Below are positions 1,351-15,586 of a DNA stretch of 25,295 nucleotides, in pieces (position 1 is the stretch's first letter; each line of letters begins with the position of its first letter). The translations under genes were made by a program, and so were the position numbers. A model generated the notes under the pieces. The model did not search any database. It saw nothing but the letters and a program-made list of their open reading frames with translations, and was not told the origin of the DNA. Origin of the DNA: a virus; the IMG/VR virus record IMGVR_UViG_3300042691_005753, positions 1 to 25,295 of that record; one strand, given 5' to 3'.

Positions 1351-1797
1351 TTACAACTCAGCGTCTTCGTCATCTAATGTGACATTGGTAGCTTTTTCTA
1401 TGTCAGCTCTCAACTTTTTAATCTGAGCAGGTATGTTACTAATCGCAGCTTTATATTGATCGATACTAATAATATTGCTTTTTAATTGCATTAATAAAGC
1501 ATCTTTTTGATGTTCTAAAGCCTTTAATTCAGCTTGTTTTTTATGAATACCGCTTGAGACAGGCTCGTTACTTTTTACGTCTTTTGCAGAAGGTTCTTTT
1601 TCGAACTCTGCAGAATCGTCTGAATCGTCTTTAAACCAATTATCTTCGCTTTCTTCATCTCCGAACATTTCATCGTCATTCATTTCATCCTGTTCGGCAT
1701 CAGTCTTCAACATCCCGCCCGTGTTATCGTTTTCGTTTAGGGTAGACCTTTTGGTAAGTTTATTCTTAACTAAGAATTTTTTAATATTGAATTCCAT
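1351..1797 (-). CDS. Acidic coiled-coil protein upstream of terL
   Basis: A 148-aa protein of unknown function. Residues 1-20 are basic (MEFNIKKFLVKNKLTKRST). The middle, about 30-75, is a very acidic low-complexity stretch rich in Asp, Glu and Asn. Residues about 85-135 look like a heptad-containing coiled coil (KKQAELKALEHQKDALLMQL), and the tail is acidic again. It sits immediately before terL, where T4-like phages often carry the small terminase (T4 gp16 is a mostly helical, coiled-coil oligomer). A small-terminase or motor-accessory role is therefore a positional guess. The leader also contains TLNE (19-22), an LxE prohead-protease-like site, so a capsid-internal role is another possibility. 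The start is preceded by TATTTATAAC, not by a Shine-Dalgarno. Confidence 0.8.
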   Translation of the reverse strand: MEFNIKKFLVKNKLTKRSTLNENDNTGGMLKTDAEQDEMNDDEMFGDEESEDNWFKDDSDDSAEFEKEPSAKDVKSNEPVSSGIHKKQAELKALEHQKDALLMQLKSNIISIDQYKAAISNIPAQIKKLRADIEKATNVTLDDEDAEL

Positions 1798-3293: not shown

Positions 3294-4163
3294 CTAGCTT
3301 CTATAGGGGTTAGGAAAATTAAAGTTACCGTTTTTAGTTATAGTACCTTTTAAAACGAAATACTTTTTATCTTTTATCTTTACTTGATCTTTCATCGACT
3401 TTTTAACTGCCGTCAACATCTGAGCTGCTAAGTACTGGTCGGATGGCGGTACTGTACCGTAAAACTCTTGTTTAAATTTAGAGTCTGTTTTATTTCTACC
3501 CAACTCAATTTGAATTATCTCCGGAACGTATAATTCGTTTCCAGAAGTAGAACTCTTCGTTCCGTGACTCTTAAAAAGATTTAATTGTTCCGGAGTGAAT
3601 TGGTAGTTGGTAGGTACTTTTTTATCTTCTCTTTGAAGTTTTTTTTTAGCTTCGTATAGACCTTTTTCCTGAGCTCTGCGTTTTGAGTAATCAGAAATGT
3701 ACTCTTCTTCTTCTTTTTCTGAATCATATCCTACTTCGTCAACAAACTCCTGTAATTCTTCTAATGCTTGAAGTAGTCCAGTTTTTTCTGCTATAGGAAT
3801 ATTAGAATTAGTAGCAAGATTTCTCTTTAAGTTACGTAGGGCATCATCTGCAGCCTGTATTTTTCTCATATCTACACCTTCGTACATTACTTCGGCATAT
3901 CCAGGTCCTGGTCCTTTCGTCCTACTAGATTCACCGTCTAAATATTCAGCAACTGAATGCATATAGTCGGCAGCAAGAGAAACATAAGCTGATACCCATC
4001 CTGGAAGGTTATCGCTTTCACCAATCATTTGATCGATCTTGGAAGCATTGGAGATCATATCTCTTAACTCGTTCTTAGCCATGCCAGCTTCGTGGTCATG
4101 TCCGTGATTCCAATCACGTCCACATTCGTTACATTCTGCAAGTATGTGTTTTAGCTTTATCAT
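3294..4163 (-). CDS. Probable capsid-internal protein: CTS leader, zinc knuckle, helical domain, second domain
   Basis: A 289-aa protein with leader MIKLKHILAE, a near copy of three upstream leaders, ending in an LxE-type cleavage-like site before C11. The likely mature N-terminus begins C11-x2-C14 then H20/H22/H24, a possible zinc knuckle. A helical domain follows, with the phrase MAKNELRDMI...LPGWVSAYVSLAADYMHSV (about 28-71). I recall this phrase from many cyanophage and pelagiphage proteins, where its function is unknown. A charged linker (145-170) ends in GLYE/A (E171), another LxE site, before a separate basic domain (172-289). The start ATG overlaps the preceding stop (ATGA), so translation is probably coupled. 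The packaging role is inferred from the leader. Confidence 0.8.
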   Translation of the reverse strand: MIKLKHILAECNECGRDWNHGHDHEAGMAKNELRDMISNASKIDQMIGESDNLPGWVSAYVSLAADYMHSVAEYLDGESSRTKGPGPGYAEVMYEGVDMRKIQAADDALRNLKRNLATNSNIPIAEKTGLLQALEELQEFVDEVGYDSEKEEEEYISDYSKRRAQEKGLYEAKKKLQREDKKVPTNYQFTPEQLNLFKSHGTKSSTSGNELYVPEIIQIELGRNKTDSKFKQEFYGTVPPSDQYLAAQMLTAVKKSMKDQVKIKDKKYFVLKGTITKNGNFNFPNPYRS

Positions 4164-4516
4164 TTTATAGCTCTTGTTATTTTATCGTTTATTTGCTTTT
4201 CAGTTTCTCGTGGAAGAACGGTTATTTCATCAGGAAAATCTTTAAGATTAAACTGTATAAACTTACCGTTCTCTACCTTTCCTATCAAAGCAGTGTTGAA
4301 ATGTCCACCTGTTAATTTATAGACTATTTCAAAAAACACGCCACTCTGTCCAGGATACGTATATAAATAGATACCAGCATCATTAACTACAAGATTAAAA
4401 GCTCCTAATTCATTCTTTGGAATTTGAGCAAAATATAACGAGTCGGTTATTTTTTTAAACCTGTAGTTACCTTTGACAGCACGGTTAAATATGTCAATAT
4501 CTTTTGGATTTATCAT
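4160..4516 (-). CDS. Hypothetical protein inside the internal-protein block
   Basis: A 118-aa protein I do not recognise. It looks like a small alpha/beta or beta-rich domain with alternating hydrophobic strands (AFNLVVNDAGIYLYTYPG, then GVFFEIVYKLTGGHF) and a Lys/Arg-rich helical end. Unlike its neighbours it lacks the MIKLxxILxE leader (it begins MINPKDIDIF), so it may not be packaged. It overlaps the previous gene by one base (TAATG) and the next by four (ATGA), so it is translated as part of the same chain. The run FNTALIGKVENGKFIQFNL does not match a catalytic motif I know. Confidence 0.75.
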   Translation of the reverse strand: MINPKDIDIFNRAVKGNYRFKKITDSLYFAQIPKNELGAFNLVVNDAGIYLYTYPGQSGVFFEIVYKLTGGHFNTALIGKVENGKFIQFNLKDFPDEITVLPRETEKQINDKITRAIK

Positions 4517-4704
4517 TAACAGTGGTAGTTTAAATATCTTTGAAGTGCTTTTGCGTAATGAGTTCCTTTATCCTTTAACTTAGATTTCGCCGATCTAACT
4601 CTAGAACACGATAATTTTCCAAGTCTTTTTTTGAGAATTCCAGGTTTTACTGGGTCGTGAACTCCCTCTTTAACTTCATTTAGTATGTCGGTAAGCTTAA
4701 TCAT
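4516..4704 (-). CDS. Small basic capsid-targeted protein with YLNYHC end
   Basis: A 62-aa protein. The in-frame ATG at 4719 is rejected. The start at 4704 gives a four-base ATGA overlap with the preceding stop and places MIKLTDILNE at the N-terminus, matching the leaders of three nearby genes. Cleavage after E10 would release a mature basic peptide of 52 residues with a Lys/Arg-rich core (GILKKRLGKLSCSRVRSAKS) and the ending ALQRYLNYHC. I recall this ending from marine T4-like phages, without a known function. The small size, positive charge and leader resemble T4 internal proteins (IPI-III), which are packaged with DNA and injected. That role here is inferred. Confidence 0.8.
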   Translation of the reverse strand: MIKLTDILNEVKEGVHDPVKPGILKKRLGKLSCSRVRSAKSKLKDKGTHYAKALQRYLNYHC

Positions 4705-5558
4705 TTTGTTTTTCCCCAAGTCTTACCCTTACCCGGACGGCTACATTGTGATGGTGTTGGACGGCAGGATGGATACTTAGCACGCGTTTCACCTTTCTGC
4801 CTGCCGCAGGGTTTACATTTTTTCTTGCCGTCAACTTCTCGGCATGTATTACAATCGACCCAGCCTTTTGAACTACCTGATCCGCCCTGTCTTGAGAACC
4901 ATTTATGGAGAGATTCTTTTTCCTCTACGAGATCTTCTTCTTTTAACCCTTTCCAAATATCTCCTTTACGGCATCTTACTATAGCACCTGATCTGTATGC
5001 AGTCGATTTCTTTCCGTATCTATTACGTGCAATACGAAGACATCGGTCTGCTTTTTTTTTCTCTTCGATTACTTCGTTTAATTCAGGTTTAAATCCTTCT
5101 TTTTCAAACCCATCACGAAACCATTGCGGTAAATTACTAAACTTAGATTTTACCGATGTTTTACCGTTTTCAAACCAATCGGGGAATAATGTATAATAAC
5201 CGCCTATTTTTCTGTATTCTGAAGGAATTTGACTTTCAGGTGTAATTTTCAACGGTTCAGATACTCCTGGAAATTGATTAGCTGTAAAATCGATACCTAA
5301 TCCATCTACGATAGAAAATATATGTGAATCTCCGTCACCGCTCTTACCGGGAAATTTTTTTGTATCTTTAGGAGGGGCTAATAATAGAGCAACGGGTTCA
5401 AATCCTTTATTCTTTTTAGTCCATTTTATAAATTCAAAAGTAGAGCGCTTACAATCATGGTTAGAGTTATAGCTTTTAGAATTCATAAATTCTTTAGCTA
5501 GACTACCAACTTGTTGTTGATTTAAAACTTCGTTTAATATGTCTAATAACTTAATCAC
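4701..5558 (-). CDS. CTS-led two-domain protein: papain/transglutaminase-like front, Cys-rich back
   Basis: A 285-aa protein with start GTG at 5558, overlapping the previous stop (GTGA). This start is supported by the leader MIKLLDILNE. Domain 1 (11-162) has C36, H79 (DSHIFSIVDG) and D90 (GIDFTANQF) in the order of papain-fold or transglutaminase-like hydrolases; the assignment is mine and tentative. It ends at ELNE/V (E162), the same LNE/V sequence as the leader site. Domain 2 holds a basic ADRCLRIARNRYGKKSTAYR motif (170-189). It is followed by a Cys-rich module, LHKWFSRQGGSGSSKGWVDC with CNTC and CKPC pairs (217-275). I recall that module as DUF5872-like from marine phages, probably zinc-binding. 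If both sites are cut, the protein is a packaged precursor releasing two products. Confidence 0.8.
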   Translation of the reverse strand: MIKLLDILNEVLNQQQVGSLAKEFMNSKSYNSNHDCKRSTFEFIKWTKKNKGFEPVALLLAPPKDTKKFPGKSGDGDSHIFSIVDGLGIDFTANQFPGVSEPLKITPESQIPSEYRKIGGYYTLFPDWFENGKTSVKSKFSNLPQWFRDGFEKEGFKPELNEVIEEKKKADRCLRIARNRYGKKSTAYRSGAIVRCRKGDIWKGLKEEDLVEEKESLHKWFSRQGGSGSSKGWVDCNTCREVDGKKKCKPCGRQKGETRAKYPSCRPTPSQCSRPGKGKTWGKTK

Positions 5559-5875
5559 TTTTTATCTCTGATTAGGAGTTCACCTAATACCTCCATACGA
5601 CCTACTTCACGTTGAAACTCTATTTGAGTCATGTTTAATGAAATCTTTTTATGTGTTTGCTCGAATTCTTTCATAGCAGCTTCTTTATTAAATTTACCCT
5701 CCTCTGCTTTTTTGTAGTAGGGAGCTTTAACTTTGAAATGATGCCATGTTAACAGTGATAATCCGCCTTTTTCCTCGGCATTTGACGCTATCTTAGCAGC
5801 ACCTTTACCACGGGTAGTAGCAAAGTTTTCAAATGTTTCTTGTACTTCTTTTAGTATGTCTAATAATTTAATCAT
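5555..5875 (-). CDS. Small capsid-targeted protein with conserved phage domain
   Basis: A 106-aa protein with leader MIKLLDILKE, which would be cut before V11. The mature part, about 96 residues, is basic and helical, with TTRGKGAAKIA (20-30) and LTWHHFKVKAPYYKKA (42-57). It looks like a diverged version of a small domain I recall in many marine T4-like phages (LTAxHFKAKAKPY type), whose function is unknown. The start ATG directly abuts the stop of the preceding gene (TAAATG). A virion-internal, DNA-associated role is inferred from leader, charge and size. Confidence 0.8.
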   Translation of the reverse strand: MIKLLDILKEVQETFENFATTRGKGAAKIASNAEEKGGLSLLTWHHFKVKAPYYKKAEEGKFNKEAAMKEFEQTHKKISLNMTQIEFQREVGRMEVLGELLIRDKK

Positions 5876-6376
5876 TTACCAAGCTTTACAAGACCAGTAC
5901 CTTGCTTTGGTACGAGGTCCGGGGTTAGCACAGTTATGTCTTGCTCTAAAACTCTTCCTGCGGGCAGGAATATTCTTTTTTATCTTCATGTTAGGGTCAC
6001 CGAAGTTAACCTTTACAACATTACCTTTATCATTTTTAACATATACAGATCTTTTCTTAGGGCCTCCCGGTGTTAGAAAGGGTTTACCGAGCTTAACTTT
6101 ACGTCCTTTATACTCAGCTTCTTCAAGTTTATGCTCGTATTCTAGAAGGTATTCAGCAAGACACGCAGTACAGTAGTTTTCTGTTTCGTAACTCTCCTCA
6201 TGATCGGCTCTTACTTGATGAAACTCGTCTGGTCCATCATCAGCCATGGTATGCATTTCGTTAGTTCTACGACTACAATGATGTTTTCCTGTTAAGAAAG
6301 GTTTAGGGCATGATGTGCCCTTTACGTGTACGTGTCCACACTTACCGCAGCAAGTACCTTTTTTTTCGTCTAACAT
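5876..6376 (-). CDS. Zinc-knuckle protein joined to a conserved phage C-terminal domain
   Basis: A 166-aa protein in two parts. Residues 1-80 are Cys/His-rich: C9, C10, C13, H15, H17, C23, H32, H33, C34 and a CTAC pair at 69-72, so probably zinc-binding. KLEE/AEYKG (E86/A87) is an LxE cleavage-like boundary. Residues 87-166 are a basic domain containing [20 protein letters not shown] and ending [10 protein letters not shown] recall this domain as frequent in marine T4-like phages. In relatives I remember, this C-terminal part seems to follow directly on a short leader, which would fit cleavage at this site. Function is unknown, and structural or internal virion location is inferred. It overlaps the previous gene by one base. 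Confidence 0.8.
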
Positions 6377-7970: not shown

Positions 7971-8822
7971 TTATTTATACTGGTCTACTAACTTAAATTC
8001 GATATTTTTAGCATTTAAAATTTTAAGTACTTGCTCATATGCTAGTAGACTTGGCGGTTCAAAACCCTCTTCGTCATCAAATCCTGAACTATATGTTGCA
8101 CTTGGTTTTTTAATTTCAATACTTTTTATTGCTTTCGAAATATCTACACCCTCTGGATATCTTTCTAAACTCACTCTCTCTTCTGATTCGTCCGCACTAT
8201 TTCTTCCGTACCCTGCTTTAGTATCAGCATAAGGTTCGAATTTATACTTATTGGAAAGTTTATCTCCGTCAACAGTAATACGAACACTCTGTGAGATTGT
8301 ATCACTTTTCATTCTTTTGTTTCTAGTAAAAGAAACGTAGGGCTGTATGTTAGAATTAAGTTTAAAACCATTCTTAATTATACCTACCAACGAAGGATAA
8401 TTAGTAAAGTGGTACACCACTCCTACCTGCTTTGCTTCGCTTAGAGGTGTTACTTTCGAATCAAGGTTGTATATATTGAGGTTTAGTTTTCCGTACTCCC
8501 TCATTATAATACCTGCCATTGCATTAGCATCGTTCTCAATATCAGTACCTGTTTCTCCTGCAGTATCATGTATCAGCCCTAATTCATGCTGTCTGTGATG
8601 AGTTAATTCATGTGCAAGACTTCTACAGACATCGGCTAAATTTCTTCCTAGAGAAAAAACCTTGATAGACATCGATCCGGGATGATACTCACCAAAAGAT
8701 CTACGTTCTTCAACAAAAGATTTGTCGTTTACCATAGATATTTTAGGCAAGGACTGTATATTTAATTCTTTTTTACAGAAACGAATAAAGTGTTTTAGTG
8801 TTTCTAACTTGTTTTGATCCAT
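7971..8822 (-). CDS. Zinc metallopeptidase fused to an ADP-ribosyltransferase-like domain
   Basis: A 283-aa two-domain protein. Residues 1-115 carry HELTHHRQHELG, with HExxH at 71-75 and catalytic E72, followed by IENDANAMAG (95-104) supplying an E or D third ligand. This is the layout of M78/gluzincin-type peptidases. PLSE/A (126-130) is an LxE cleavage-like linker. Residues 134-283 contain VVYHFTNYPSLVGIIKNGF (135-153), PYVSFTRN (161-168) and DESEERVSLERYPEGV (211-226). The order H, S/T, E and the start YHxT resemble ART/DarT-type folds; this is my inference. The start overlaps the nucleotidyltransferase stop (TAATG). It may be a virion-delivered effector comparable in concept to T4 Alt, or only an enzyme acting in the infected cell. 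The peptidase call is firm; the ART call is moderate. Confidence 0.82.
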   Translation of the reverse strand: MDQNKLETLKHFIRFCKKELNIQSLPKISMVNDKSFVEERRSFGEYHPGSMSIKVFSLGRNLADVCRSLAHELTHHRQHELGLIHDTAGETGTDIENDANAMAGIIMREYGKLNLNIYNLDSKVTPLSEAKQVGVVYHFTNYPSLVGIIKNGFKLNSNIQPYVSFTRNKRMKSDTISQSVRITVDGDKLSNKYKFEPYADTKAGYGRNSADESEERVSLERYPEGVDISKAIKSIEIKKPSATYSSGFDDEEGFEPPSLLAYEQVLKILNAKNIEFKLVDQYK

Positions 8823-9403
8823 TACTTTTTAATTTTTGGTGCAAGTAACTTAAAAATCTTCGATGCAGCACCTCTATTGAATGCAGCTTCAGGAACAGCT
8901 TCAACGAAAGATTCGTAATCACCAGAATCTAACAAGTTTCTTACGTGCGGGGCTGTTATATCACCTGCTTTTTCATGAACCTTTATCAACTTTACTCTAT
9001 CTCCAAACTCTTTTTGTAGCGAAGTAACATACTCTAGATCATCTACTTCGTCATCTCCCGCTGAAACATATACAGGATTTACTGTTGAATTTTCTTCAAG
9101 GTATTTGTAGATATCTACTACTGGAGATTCTTGGTCGGAGATTTTTACCTTAATTTTAGAATTTGGTTCTGCTTGAAGGTATATATTCCAAATAGCAAGA
9201 GAATCTTCAGGGGTAATTCCGTCTACTACTTTCTTACTTATTATGATATATACTACCTTAACATAGTCTCTACTAGCCAAATCTTTTGCAGCCTGGTAGT
9301 GTCCTTTATGTGGCGGTTTAAATCTTCCTGGGTAGAAGCACGGACCAGATTCATTTATAAGTGCCTCTGCGATTCTTTTCCCTAATAATTCAGCATTAAT
9401 CAT
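8822..9403 (-). CDS. HxGH nucleotidyltransferase (cytidylyltransferase/NMNAT-like)
   Basis: A 193-aa enzyme of the nucleotidyltransferase superfamily. It has YPGRFKPPHKGHYQAA (24-39), with the nucleotide-binding HxGH at 32-35. It has the C-terminal ITAPHVRNLL segment in place of the ISxTxxR motif, so ATP or CTP transfer to a phosphorylated acceptor is expected. The substrate cannot be read from sequence; NMN (NAD synthesis), pantetheine phosphate and sugar or glycerol phosphates are all possible. Residues 1-18 end in ALINE/S, again an LxE-type boundary just before the fold begins, so the protein may be packaged. Fifteen bases containing TATTTATAA separate it from the exonuclease gene. It overlaps the metallopeptidase gene by a few bases. 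Confidence 0.85.
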   Translation of the reverse strand: MINAELLGKRIAEALINESGPCFYPGRFKPPHKGHYQAAKDLASRDYVKVVYIIISKKVVDGITPEDSLAIWNIYLQAEPNSKIKVKISDQESPVVDIYKYLEENSTVNPVYVSAGDDEVDDLEYVTSLQKEFGDRVKLIKVHEKAGDITAPHVRNLLDSGDYESFVEAVPEAAFNRGAASKIFKLLAPKIKK

Positions 9404-14230: not shown

Positions 14231-15586
14231 TTATAAGGCTGCGCAAGCATCACCGCATGTTGCATAATTTCCAGAAGATGTATCTAAGACATATCCAGGA
14301 CCTGTAGGACTAGTTCCTGTGATTTGATATACATGATTAAGATCTGCTGCATCTGGGTAGAATCTACTTGTAGTTACAGTTTGTCCAGCAGGGAATGCTA
14401 CTATTAATCCGCTGCTAACCACAGTACAAGTAGAACATTGGTATTTGTCAGCTGTGTAGTGATCATAAACTACTGTTGTTGTTGTAGTTGTTGTACTAGT
14501 AGTAGTTGTTGTGGTGGGAGTAGTACAGACTGTTATATCTCTTACAACATATCCATTAGTTTCAAAATTTACATAATACGGACCAATTTTAAAATATTGC
14601 TGGGAAGTATCTGTATAAGCACTAGCTGTTATAGGTACAGTAAGGCATTCATCATAATATAAAGGTGTACCATTAGTAAGTGCTAATGATGAAGAATAAT
14701 ATATAGTAGAAGCACTAACTAATAAATTACATGCAGCATCAGCAGAACTAGTTCCAAACATTCTAGGTAATCCTGTATCATAATTATAATACATACTCTG
14801 TGCATTTTGTGGAGCACAAGTTGTTGTAGTTGTAGTAGTACTAGTAGTAGTTGTTGTTGTTGTTGGTACTGTTGTCGTGCTTGTAGTAGTACTAGTAGTA
14901 GTTGTAGTTGGTACTGTCGTAGTCGTTGTAGTCGTACTAGTAGTCGTAGGTACTGTTGTCGTACTAGTAGTTGTGCTAGTAGTTGTGGTAGTCGGAGCAG
15001 TAGTAGTTGTACTAGTTGTAGAAGTAGTAGTCGTTGTAGATCCGGTAGGACATGGTAGAATATCTAGATAATTAGGGTTGGTAAAAATAACCATTCCCTG
15101 CGGGTATATAACATTACCTACATGCAGACTTCCAGATACTTTATCTACGAGATTACCGTTACCGTCATCTACGATATAGTAAGCAGAAGAAGAAAGTATA
15201 AAATTATTCTTAGCTATCTTTTCGCCGAAAACTCCTCTTGGTACTGATAAAATAGTTATACGGGCATTTGATTCTGTAGGAAAATACCTATTATCTGAAT
15301 CTAAAGAACCAGAAGCGGCAGTAGATTGTAAAAAATTATCCGCACTTGAAGCAGAAACTGGAAATGACCCGGTGAGGTAGTTAGAATAATACAAGTGCCT
15401 GATTGACCAGTAGTTCAAAGTTTCTTGCGGAATAGATCCTGTTATAGTCACAGGACCGTTCACCCCATTCAAAACTTCCATTCCATACTCCGCAAGCGTA
15501 CTACAATTGTACGACGAAGTGTATATTAGTTTGATCGGAGTAGTAATAACATCAGATGTTTTAAGACTATTTGATGATCTACTCAT
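14231..15586 (-). CDS. Tail fibre/adhesin with mucin-like poly-Thr linkers and Cys-rich modules
   Basis: A 451-aa protein. Residues 1-180 are a beta-rich front part, probably the tail attachment or first module. Residues 181-256 are almost only Thr and Ser with periodic Pro/Val, forming a stiff, mucin-like linker. Residues 257-354 form a module with C257, C286, C314 and C354, YY pairs and LYYDECLT. A second Thr tract spans 355-371. The last module (372-451) has CSTC (384-387) and ends TCGDACAAL. I associate such Cys/Tyr modules separated by poly-Thr with proteins of Bacteroidota and their phages. Role as a receptor-binding or decoration protein is inferred from position after the baseplate genes. 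The Thr tracts are probable O-glycosylation targets for the adjacent enzymes. Confidence 0.8.
   Translation of the reverse strand: MSRSSNSLKTSDVITTPIKLIYTSSYNCSTLAEYGMEVLNGVNGPVTITGSIPQETLNYWSIRHLYYSNYLTGSFPVSASSADNFLQSTAASGSLDSDNRYFPTESNARITILSVPRGVFGEKIAKNNFILSSSAYYIVDDGNGNLVDKVSGSLHVGNVIYPQGMVIFTNPNYLDILPCPTGSTTTTTSTTSTTTTAPTTTTTSTTTSTTTVPTTTSTTTTTTTVPTTTTTSTTTSTTTVPTTTTTTTSTTTTTTTCAPQNAQSMYYNYDTGLPRMFGTSSADAACNLLVSASTIYYSSSLALTNGTPLYYDECLTVPITASAYTDTSQQYFKIGPYYVNFETNGYVVRDITVCTTPTTTTTTSTTTTTTTVVYDHYTADKYQCSTCTVVSSGLIVAFPAGQTVTTSRFYPDAADLNHVYQITGTSPTGPGYVLDTSSGNYATCGDACAAL
14819..15046 (-). repeat. Imperfect tandem repeat coding for Thr/Pro linker
   Basis: Residues 198-256 of the fibre are four units of 15, 13, 15 and 16 residues, each starting with Pro. 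Units 1 and 3 have the same 15-residue sequence (PTTTTTSTTTSTTTV) but differ at 7 of 45 bases by my alignment. All four Thr codons are used. The protein repeat is thus kept while the DNA drifts, so this is not recent slippage. A shorter Thr tract lies at 14474-14524. Confidence 0.88.

Follow-up and report, generated by a model that had tools for sequence, protein, structure and literature searches.

A ten-residue leader resembling the T4 capsid-targeting sequence on unrelated proteins of uncultured aquatic T4-like phages

In the stretch of DNA analyzed here (the window, a 25.3-kb phage fragment from IMG/VR without head genes), four genes of one block on the minus strand encode proteins which begin with a ten-residue leader of the MIKLxxILxE type (table 1). 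This leader is very probably a T4-type capsid-targeting propeptide that serves as a general tag on head cargo and is cut off before the cargo is injected. The tag itself, the selection pattern within it, its transfer among unrelated cargos, a protease of the gp21 family and matching sites in capsid and protease proteins are evident from sequence comparison, and we infer from them the targeting, cleavage, release and injection of the tagged proteins. The tag would form a short amphipathic helix, whose hydrophobic residues 4 and 7 would attach the protein to the core of the prohead; the gp21-family protease would cut after [L/I]xE, at residue 10 or at a second site nearby, and the freed cargo would remain in the head and accompany the DNA into the next cell. 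Some longer proteins contain several cargo modules with [L/I]xE sites between them and would probably be cut into pieces. The first-pass annotation of this DNA had given a similar overall reading, which is supported in part: there is strong sequence evidence for its propeptide of the T4 internal protein III (IPIII) type with (L/I)xE as the processing site, and its argument from the leader DNA fails.

The leaders in the window and in related phages

Re-reading of the sequence recovered all four leaders on the minus strand where they had originally been reported, including the one with the GTG start at 5558. It had also been claimed that the mature parts behind them are unrelated, and indeed no mutual homology was detected beyond shared modules; on the same ground, descent of the four proteins from a common ancestor was ruled out. 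A 118-aa ORF within the tagged block (4160–4516, minus strand) is leaderless and has no clear family match. Pfam search of the window cargos gave nothing above cut-off, PHROG matches were to families of unknown function only, and comparison of the 106-aa cargo with PDB folds gave no match below E 0.7.

Table 1. Leaders, cargos and junctions in the window (slashes mark boundaries within a motif)
Feature	Position	Strand	Basis or remark
Leader MIKLLDILKE of 106-aa protein	5846..5875	-	Read from sequence; family comparison; AF2 model
106-aa helical cargo, commonest tagged family	5555..5875	-	Immuto gp082 ortholog, leader MRLLELLRE; no PDB fold match
Leader MIKLLDILNE (GTG start at 5558) of 285-aa protein	5529..5558	-	Read from sequence
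285-aa multi-module protein: N-terminal module, DRC module, ESLHKWF module	4701..5558	-	Alignment to tagged relatives
Leader MIKLTDILNE of 62-aa basic protein (4516–4704)	4675..4704	-	Read from sequence
Leader MIKLKHILAE of 289-aa protein (3294–4163)	4134..4163	-	Read from sequence
Junction LNE/VIEE/KKKADRC before DRC module, candidate gp21 site	5061..5081	-	Module contexts
Junction LVEE/KESLHKWF, candidate gp21 site	4920..4931	-	Module contexts
Junction LEE/AEYKGR in 166-aa protein (5876–6376)	6119..6127	-	EYxGR module contexts
Junction LSE/AKQVGVVYHF between metallopeptidase-like and ADP-ribosyltransferase (ART)-like halves of 7971–8822	8436..8444	-	Module comparison
ADP-ribosyltransferase-like module (YHFT, S-TR, EER), predicted	7971..8435	-	AF2 plus VIA-align, Foldseek
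Nucleotidyltransferase-like protein	8822..9403	-	Domain begins directly after LINE/S; possible member, longer leader

The baseplate wedge protein of the window is nearest to those of Flavobacterium phage immuto (44% identity) and Microcystis phage Mel-JY01 (43%), both of which have T4-type terminase, protease and capsid genes. The phages using the tag appear to be a clade of uncultured aquatic T4-like phages related to immuto, which offers a cultivated system for testing the idea of the tag; literature search revealed no proteomics for immuto or Mel-JY01. A tail-region protein of the window (14231–15586, minus strand) contains long threonine tracts (TTTTTSTTTT).

Chance origin of the four leaders is excluded. 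The loose register (hydrophobic residues at 4, 7 and 8, and Glu at 10) has an internal background of 0.0032 per position, and four N-terminal matches in about 32 genes correspond to P ~3.5e-6. In five large related genomes (251,792 residues), IKLxxILxE was found at 10 N-termini and at no internal position. When the leader was back-translated into a degenerate DNA pattern, at least 120 stretches in IMG/VR were matched, compared with one for a residue-scrambled control of equal degeneracy. Proteins of related phages with an N-terminal MIKLxxILxE-type pattern, which the first-pass annotation had suggested collecting, were numerous: the strict pattern gave at least 142 tagged genes, whose parts after residue 10 fell into at least 49 clusters without detectable mutual similarity, and the loose pattern gave 350 distinct tagged proteins with 105 cargo clusters over all fetched loci, with up to six tagged genes per locus. 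Among 523 neighbour ORFs around the 106-aa family, the register was found 82 times at residue 1 versus about 1.5 times per offset from 8 on, counts which ignore the relatedness of the ORFs. Offsets 2–6 also gave raised counts, since other classes of leader (MKKSQLRQIIKE, MDTFDLRQYLAE) share this register.

A second leader class of this register, MxxFDLKKFLVENKLTxNSxLLxE, recurs on different proteins and is present at 1351–1797 (minus strand) in the window and in immuto gp076, gp077 and gp092. The third class, MKKSQLRQIIKE, with an L-x-x-I-I-x-E register, was observed in loci L124 and L125 (immuto gp072, gp080, gp094 and gp095). No paper naming the ten-residue tag was found by literature search.

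Only 12 stretches with the leader pattern were detected in 84,980 bacterial and archaeal genomes. We read six of them as misbinned phage contigs and six as one-off chance matches; with so few stretches, half of them read as phage contigs, a function of the leader as a bacterial signal was ruled out. The six phage-like contigs (L277 and L283–L287), binned as Prochlorococcus, Flavobacteriales, Flavobacteriaceae, Nitrosopelagicus and Rickettsiaceae, look like contigs of tag-bearing phages; some contain several tagged genes, and one contains a gp21 gene.

The 106-aa family has 300 relatives in IMG/VR. Comparison of 60 distinct orthologs, 55 of which have ten-residue leaders, revealed low column entropy at positions 4, 7 (I/L), 8 and 10 of these 55 leaders and high entropy at positions 5, 6 and 9. 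The low-entropy positions are those with a mutational role in T4 IPIII, where residues 4 and 7 serve targeting and residues 8 and 10 serve processing (PMC9026906). Thus, the likeness to the T4 IPIII leader in length, amphipathic pattern and final LxE, as proposed in the first-pass annotation, extends to the conserved positions. Glu10 is kept in 51 of the 55 leaders and replaced by Gly in the other four. The four exceptions (L205, L211, L218 and L222), in which EILRG replaces EILxE, are natural E10G leaders. Some orthologs use nine-residue leaders such as MRLLELLRE, and length changes among orthologs fall directly after residue 10. In the AF2 model of the 106-aa protein, a helix at residues 4–10 is detached from the core by a break at 11–14. 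Immuto gp082 (L125:2262–2576), a member of this family, is annotated as tRNA(Ile2) agmatinyltransferase, a name which looks wrong.

Protease, cleavage sites and cargo modules

A search for a gp21-like protease, also suggested in the first-pass annotation, was successful in related genomes, the window being a fragment without the head region. PF03420 (Peptidase_S77, gp21 family) was detected in 29 of 40 tag-bearing records, including all 14 of at least 94 kb; the rest are shorter fragments. The [L/I]xE specificity in this clade is suggested by conserved motifs rather than by observed cuts. FLTE65/A66 of T4 gp23 aligns with [IL][VI]xE/[AS] in six related capsid proteins, and all 29 proteases examined have [LIVF]xE near the N-terminus, V or F replacing L/I in a few of them, followed mostly by S, G or A. 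The N-terminus of the scaffold protein in relatives has a similar register, with AIAD in most of them rather than AIAE; in T4, Asp at position 10 permits targeting but not cutting (PMC9026906).

Residue 11 is V, V, V and C in the four window proteins; over the 350 tagged proteins it is A in 70, I in 69, V in 52, S in 27 and G in 22, so that about one-third have I or V. On the other hand, the T4 sites used for comparison have A or S after the cut, and the capsid and protease sites of the clade prefer A, S or G. A or S after the cut lies outside the published L/I-X-E motif and is therefore no defining feature in the strict sense. As residue 11 often differs from that at the capsid and protease sites, cleavage may be inefficient or take place at another position; it could be at the second LxE which many tagged proteins have a few residues further on. 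The exact position of a cut after residue 10 is uncertain.

Cargo homology for the proteins starting at 5875 and 4163 begins at residue 11 even though the leaders differ, as in relatives of the 289-aa protein with MIKLKHLLPE or MIKLKSLLPE. The 62-aa cargo is found elsewhere behind other leaders or at the C-terminal end of tagged proteins, and residues 163–285 of the 285-aa protein form a separate tagged protein in L008, L027 and L169, aligned from the first post-leader residue. We traced five cargo modules and found that [LIVMF]xE ends at most five residues upstream in all 124 distinct contexts, which are partly related by descent and not all independent; 68 of these are internal junctions, and the background at random positions of the same proteins is about 15%. 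The EYxGR module is preceded by [LIVM]xE-A in 24 of 24 contexts. For the AKQxGxxYHFT module, the upstream Glu is invariant in nine of nine sequences, and the contexts include DILRE directly (L016), DILKE-ITE (L288), RLNE in a longer protein (L054) and PLSE (window, 7971–8822); this module, which forms the C-terminal half of 7971–8822, sits directly behind the leader in L016, L031, L217, L288 and L289. The nucleotidyltransferase-like protein matches PF01467 with E 0.0069, under the curated cut-off, and a relative in one fetched locus has LLEE/STPIIALYPGKFKPPH.

Possible functions of the cargos and comparison with known systems

The module at 7971–8435 is predicted to have an ADP-ribosyltransferase-like fold because its AF2 model (pLDDT 76 on a nine-sequence alignment) resembles Tpt1 and DarT (VIA-align Z 10.9 and 10.2, respectively). 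The first 19 Foldseek matches are Tpt1/KptA, mono-ADP-ribosyltransferases or Rhs C-terminal domains (best E 2.5e-3), and the YH-T, TR and EE residues are invariant in nine relatives. Other tagged cargos match zeta-toxin-like kinases, deoxyribonucleotidase (NT5C) and DEDD exonuclease; matches to families of 2H phosphoesterases and hydrolases are weaker or borderline, and many cargos have no match. Nearly all PADLOC matches among the tagged proteins are single and generic. The anti-CBASS protein Acb1 was rejected as an assignment for a cargo in L063: the match (E 3.7e-4) is below the Pfam cut-off and weaker than that of the general 2′–5′ RNA ligase model, and is therefore only a lead.

If the leader is a head-loading propeptide, as seems likely, the tag points to proteins which are probably injected into bacteria. 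A bolder hypothesis, about evenly poised between being right and wrong, is that the capsid targeting sequence (CTS) acts as a plug-in delivery platform: any gene that acquires the tag would gain entry to the head, and tagged polyproteins would be cut at [L/I]xE in the prohead, releasing several effectors, ADP-ribosyltransferase-like and kinase-like ones included, which would act on the host before phage gene expression. It is less likely, though possible, that the leader is a docking and cleavage propeptide for the head core and that most cargos are structural or DNA-condensing proteins which stay in the capsid. Several cargos are basic, rich in Cys and either small or modular, the 62-aa and 285-aa proteins of the window among them, and the commonest one (106 aa) has no enzyme match; against this reading, the matches listed above, some of them weak, and the ART-like fold connect other cargos with enzymes acting on nucleotides, RNA or NAD.

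Should the tagged proteins be injected, a short tag readable in raw sequence would mark more than 100 candidate families of injected proteins in uncultured phages, and the question of which proteins accompany phage DNA into the cell would become a sequence search. Anti-defence and host-takeover proteins might newly be drawn from the cargos, and head-loading signals from the leaders. Only a handful of internal proteins have been identified in T4. The principle goes back to this phage; in the literature searched, no description was found of its use on this scale, of the new consensus, of the internal junctions or of the set of cargos.

The CTS was described for T4 internal proteins (Mullaney and Black 1996, as recounted in PMC9026906), and a T4 review has suggested that it enables T4-like phages to load a variety of proteins (PMC9026906). 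In the T4 record, IPII and IPIII begin with MKTYQEFIAE and gp24 with MAKINELLRE, in the register common to the clade leader. Like the IPII and IPIII leaders, the clade leader has ten residues, hydrophobic residues at 4 and 7 and [I/L]xE at 8–10, and it stands as one tag before unrelated mature parts in phages with a gp21-family protease. It differs in its letters (MIKLxDILxE), in the number of cargos (more than 100 clusters, and several tagged genes in a locus), in the frequent I or V at residue 11, and in that modules are also strung together in longer proteins. The T4 sequence closest in letters is the gp24 N-terminus, MAKINELLRE/S (M-x-K-[LI]-x-[DE]-[IL]-L-x-E), which is cut by gp21 per the T4 record; unlike the clade cargos, gp24 is a vertex protein of the shell and not an internal cargo.

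T4 Alt is an ADP-ribosyltransferase which is packaged in the head and injected. Similarly, in the window an LxE site precedes the ART-like module, which in relatives comes immediately after the tag; the folds nearest to this module are Tpt1 and DarT, and it is likened to Alt as a putative head-packaged ART, not by homology. The N-terminal capsid targeting signal of phage P1 DarB also directs its cargo, an anti-restriction protein or a reporter, to the inside of the head, but is not a short leader common to many cargos (PMC9024508). In SPN3US and phiKZ, the prohead protease cuts head proteins with gp245-type propeptides after a short xxE, sometimes at several sites; there, the motif is AXE and the propeptides are mostly long (111–254 residues), with two of 20 and 24 (PMC10052503).

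Alternative explanations and the leader DNA

That the leader targets proteins to the tail or baseplate, or helps to pilot them through the tail, with LxE as the end of an amphipathic helix and not a protease site, appears improbable. In the window, the tagged block does follow the baseplate genes, downstream of them and in the same orientation, and residue 11 is often outside the A, S or G usual at the capsid and protease sites of the clade. On the other hand, Glu and the P3 hydrophobic residue are conserved as strongly as the docking residues, and the motif is also found at the capsid maturation site, the protease N-terminus and leaderless module junctions. The idea that the leaders were left behind by recent duplication of genes, or serve to couple translation (through an ATGATT that overlaps the stop codon before it), with no protein-level function, can hardly be maintained: although an ATGA-overlap start is found in 37% of tagged genes versus 13% of other genes, the cargos are unrelated, codon similarity among leaders does not exceed what their amino acids dictate, and positional conservation at the protein level holds across divergent orthologs.

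Similarity of the leader DNA had been taken in the first-pass annotation as a sign that the tag is swappable. For codons of the same amino acid, identity among leaders was 0.59 within contigs and 0.56 between contigs, compared with 0.66 and 0.63 for control codons in the cargos; leader codon identity is not above that of the cargo, and thus this argument fails. The DNA similarity also ends at both leader edges, and a recombining DNA cassette was ruled out on these two grounds. Swapping itself, as distinct from DNA similarity as its basis, is evident from the cargo homology.
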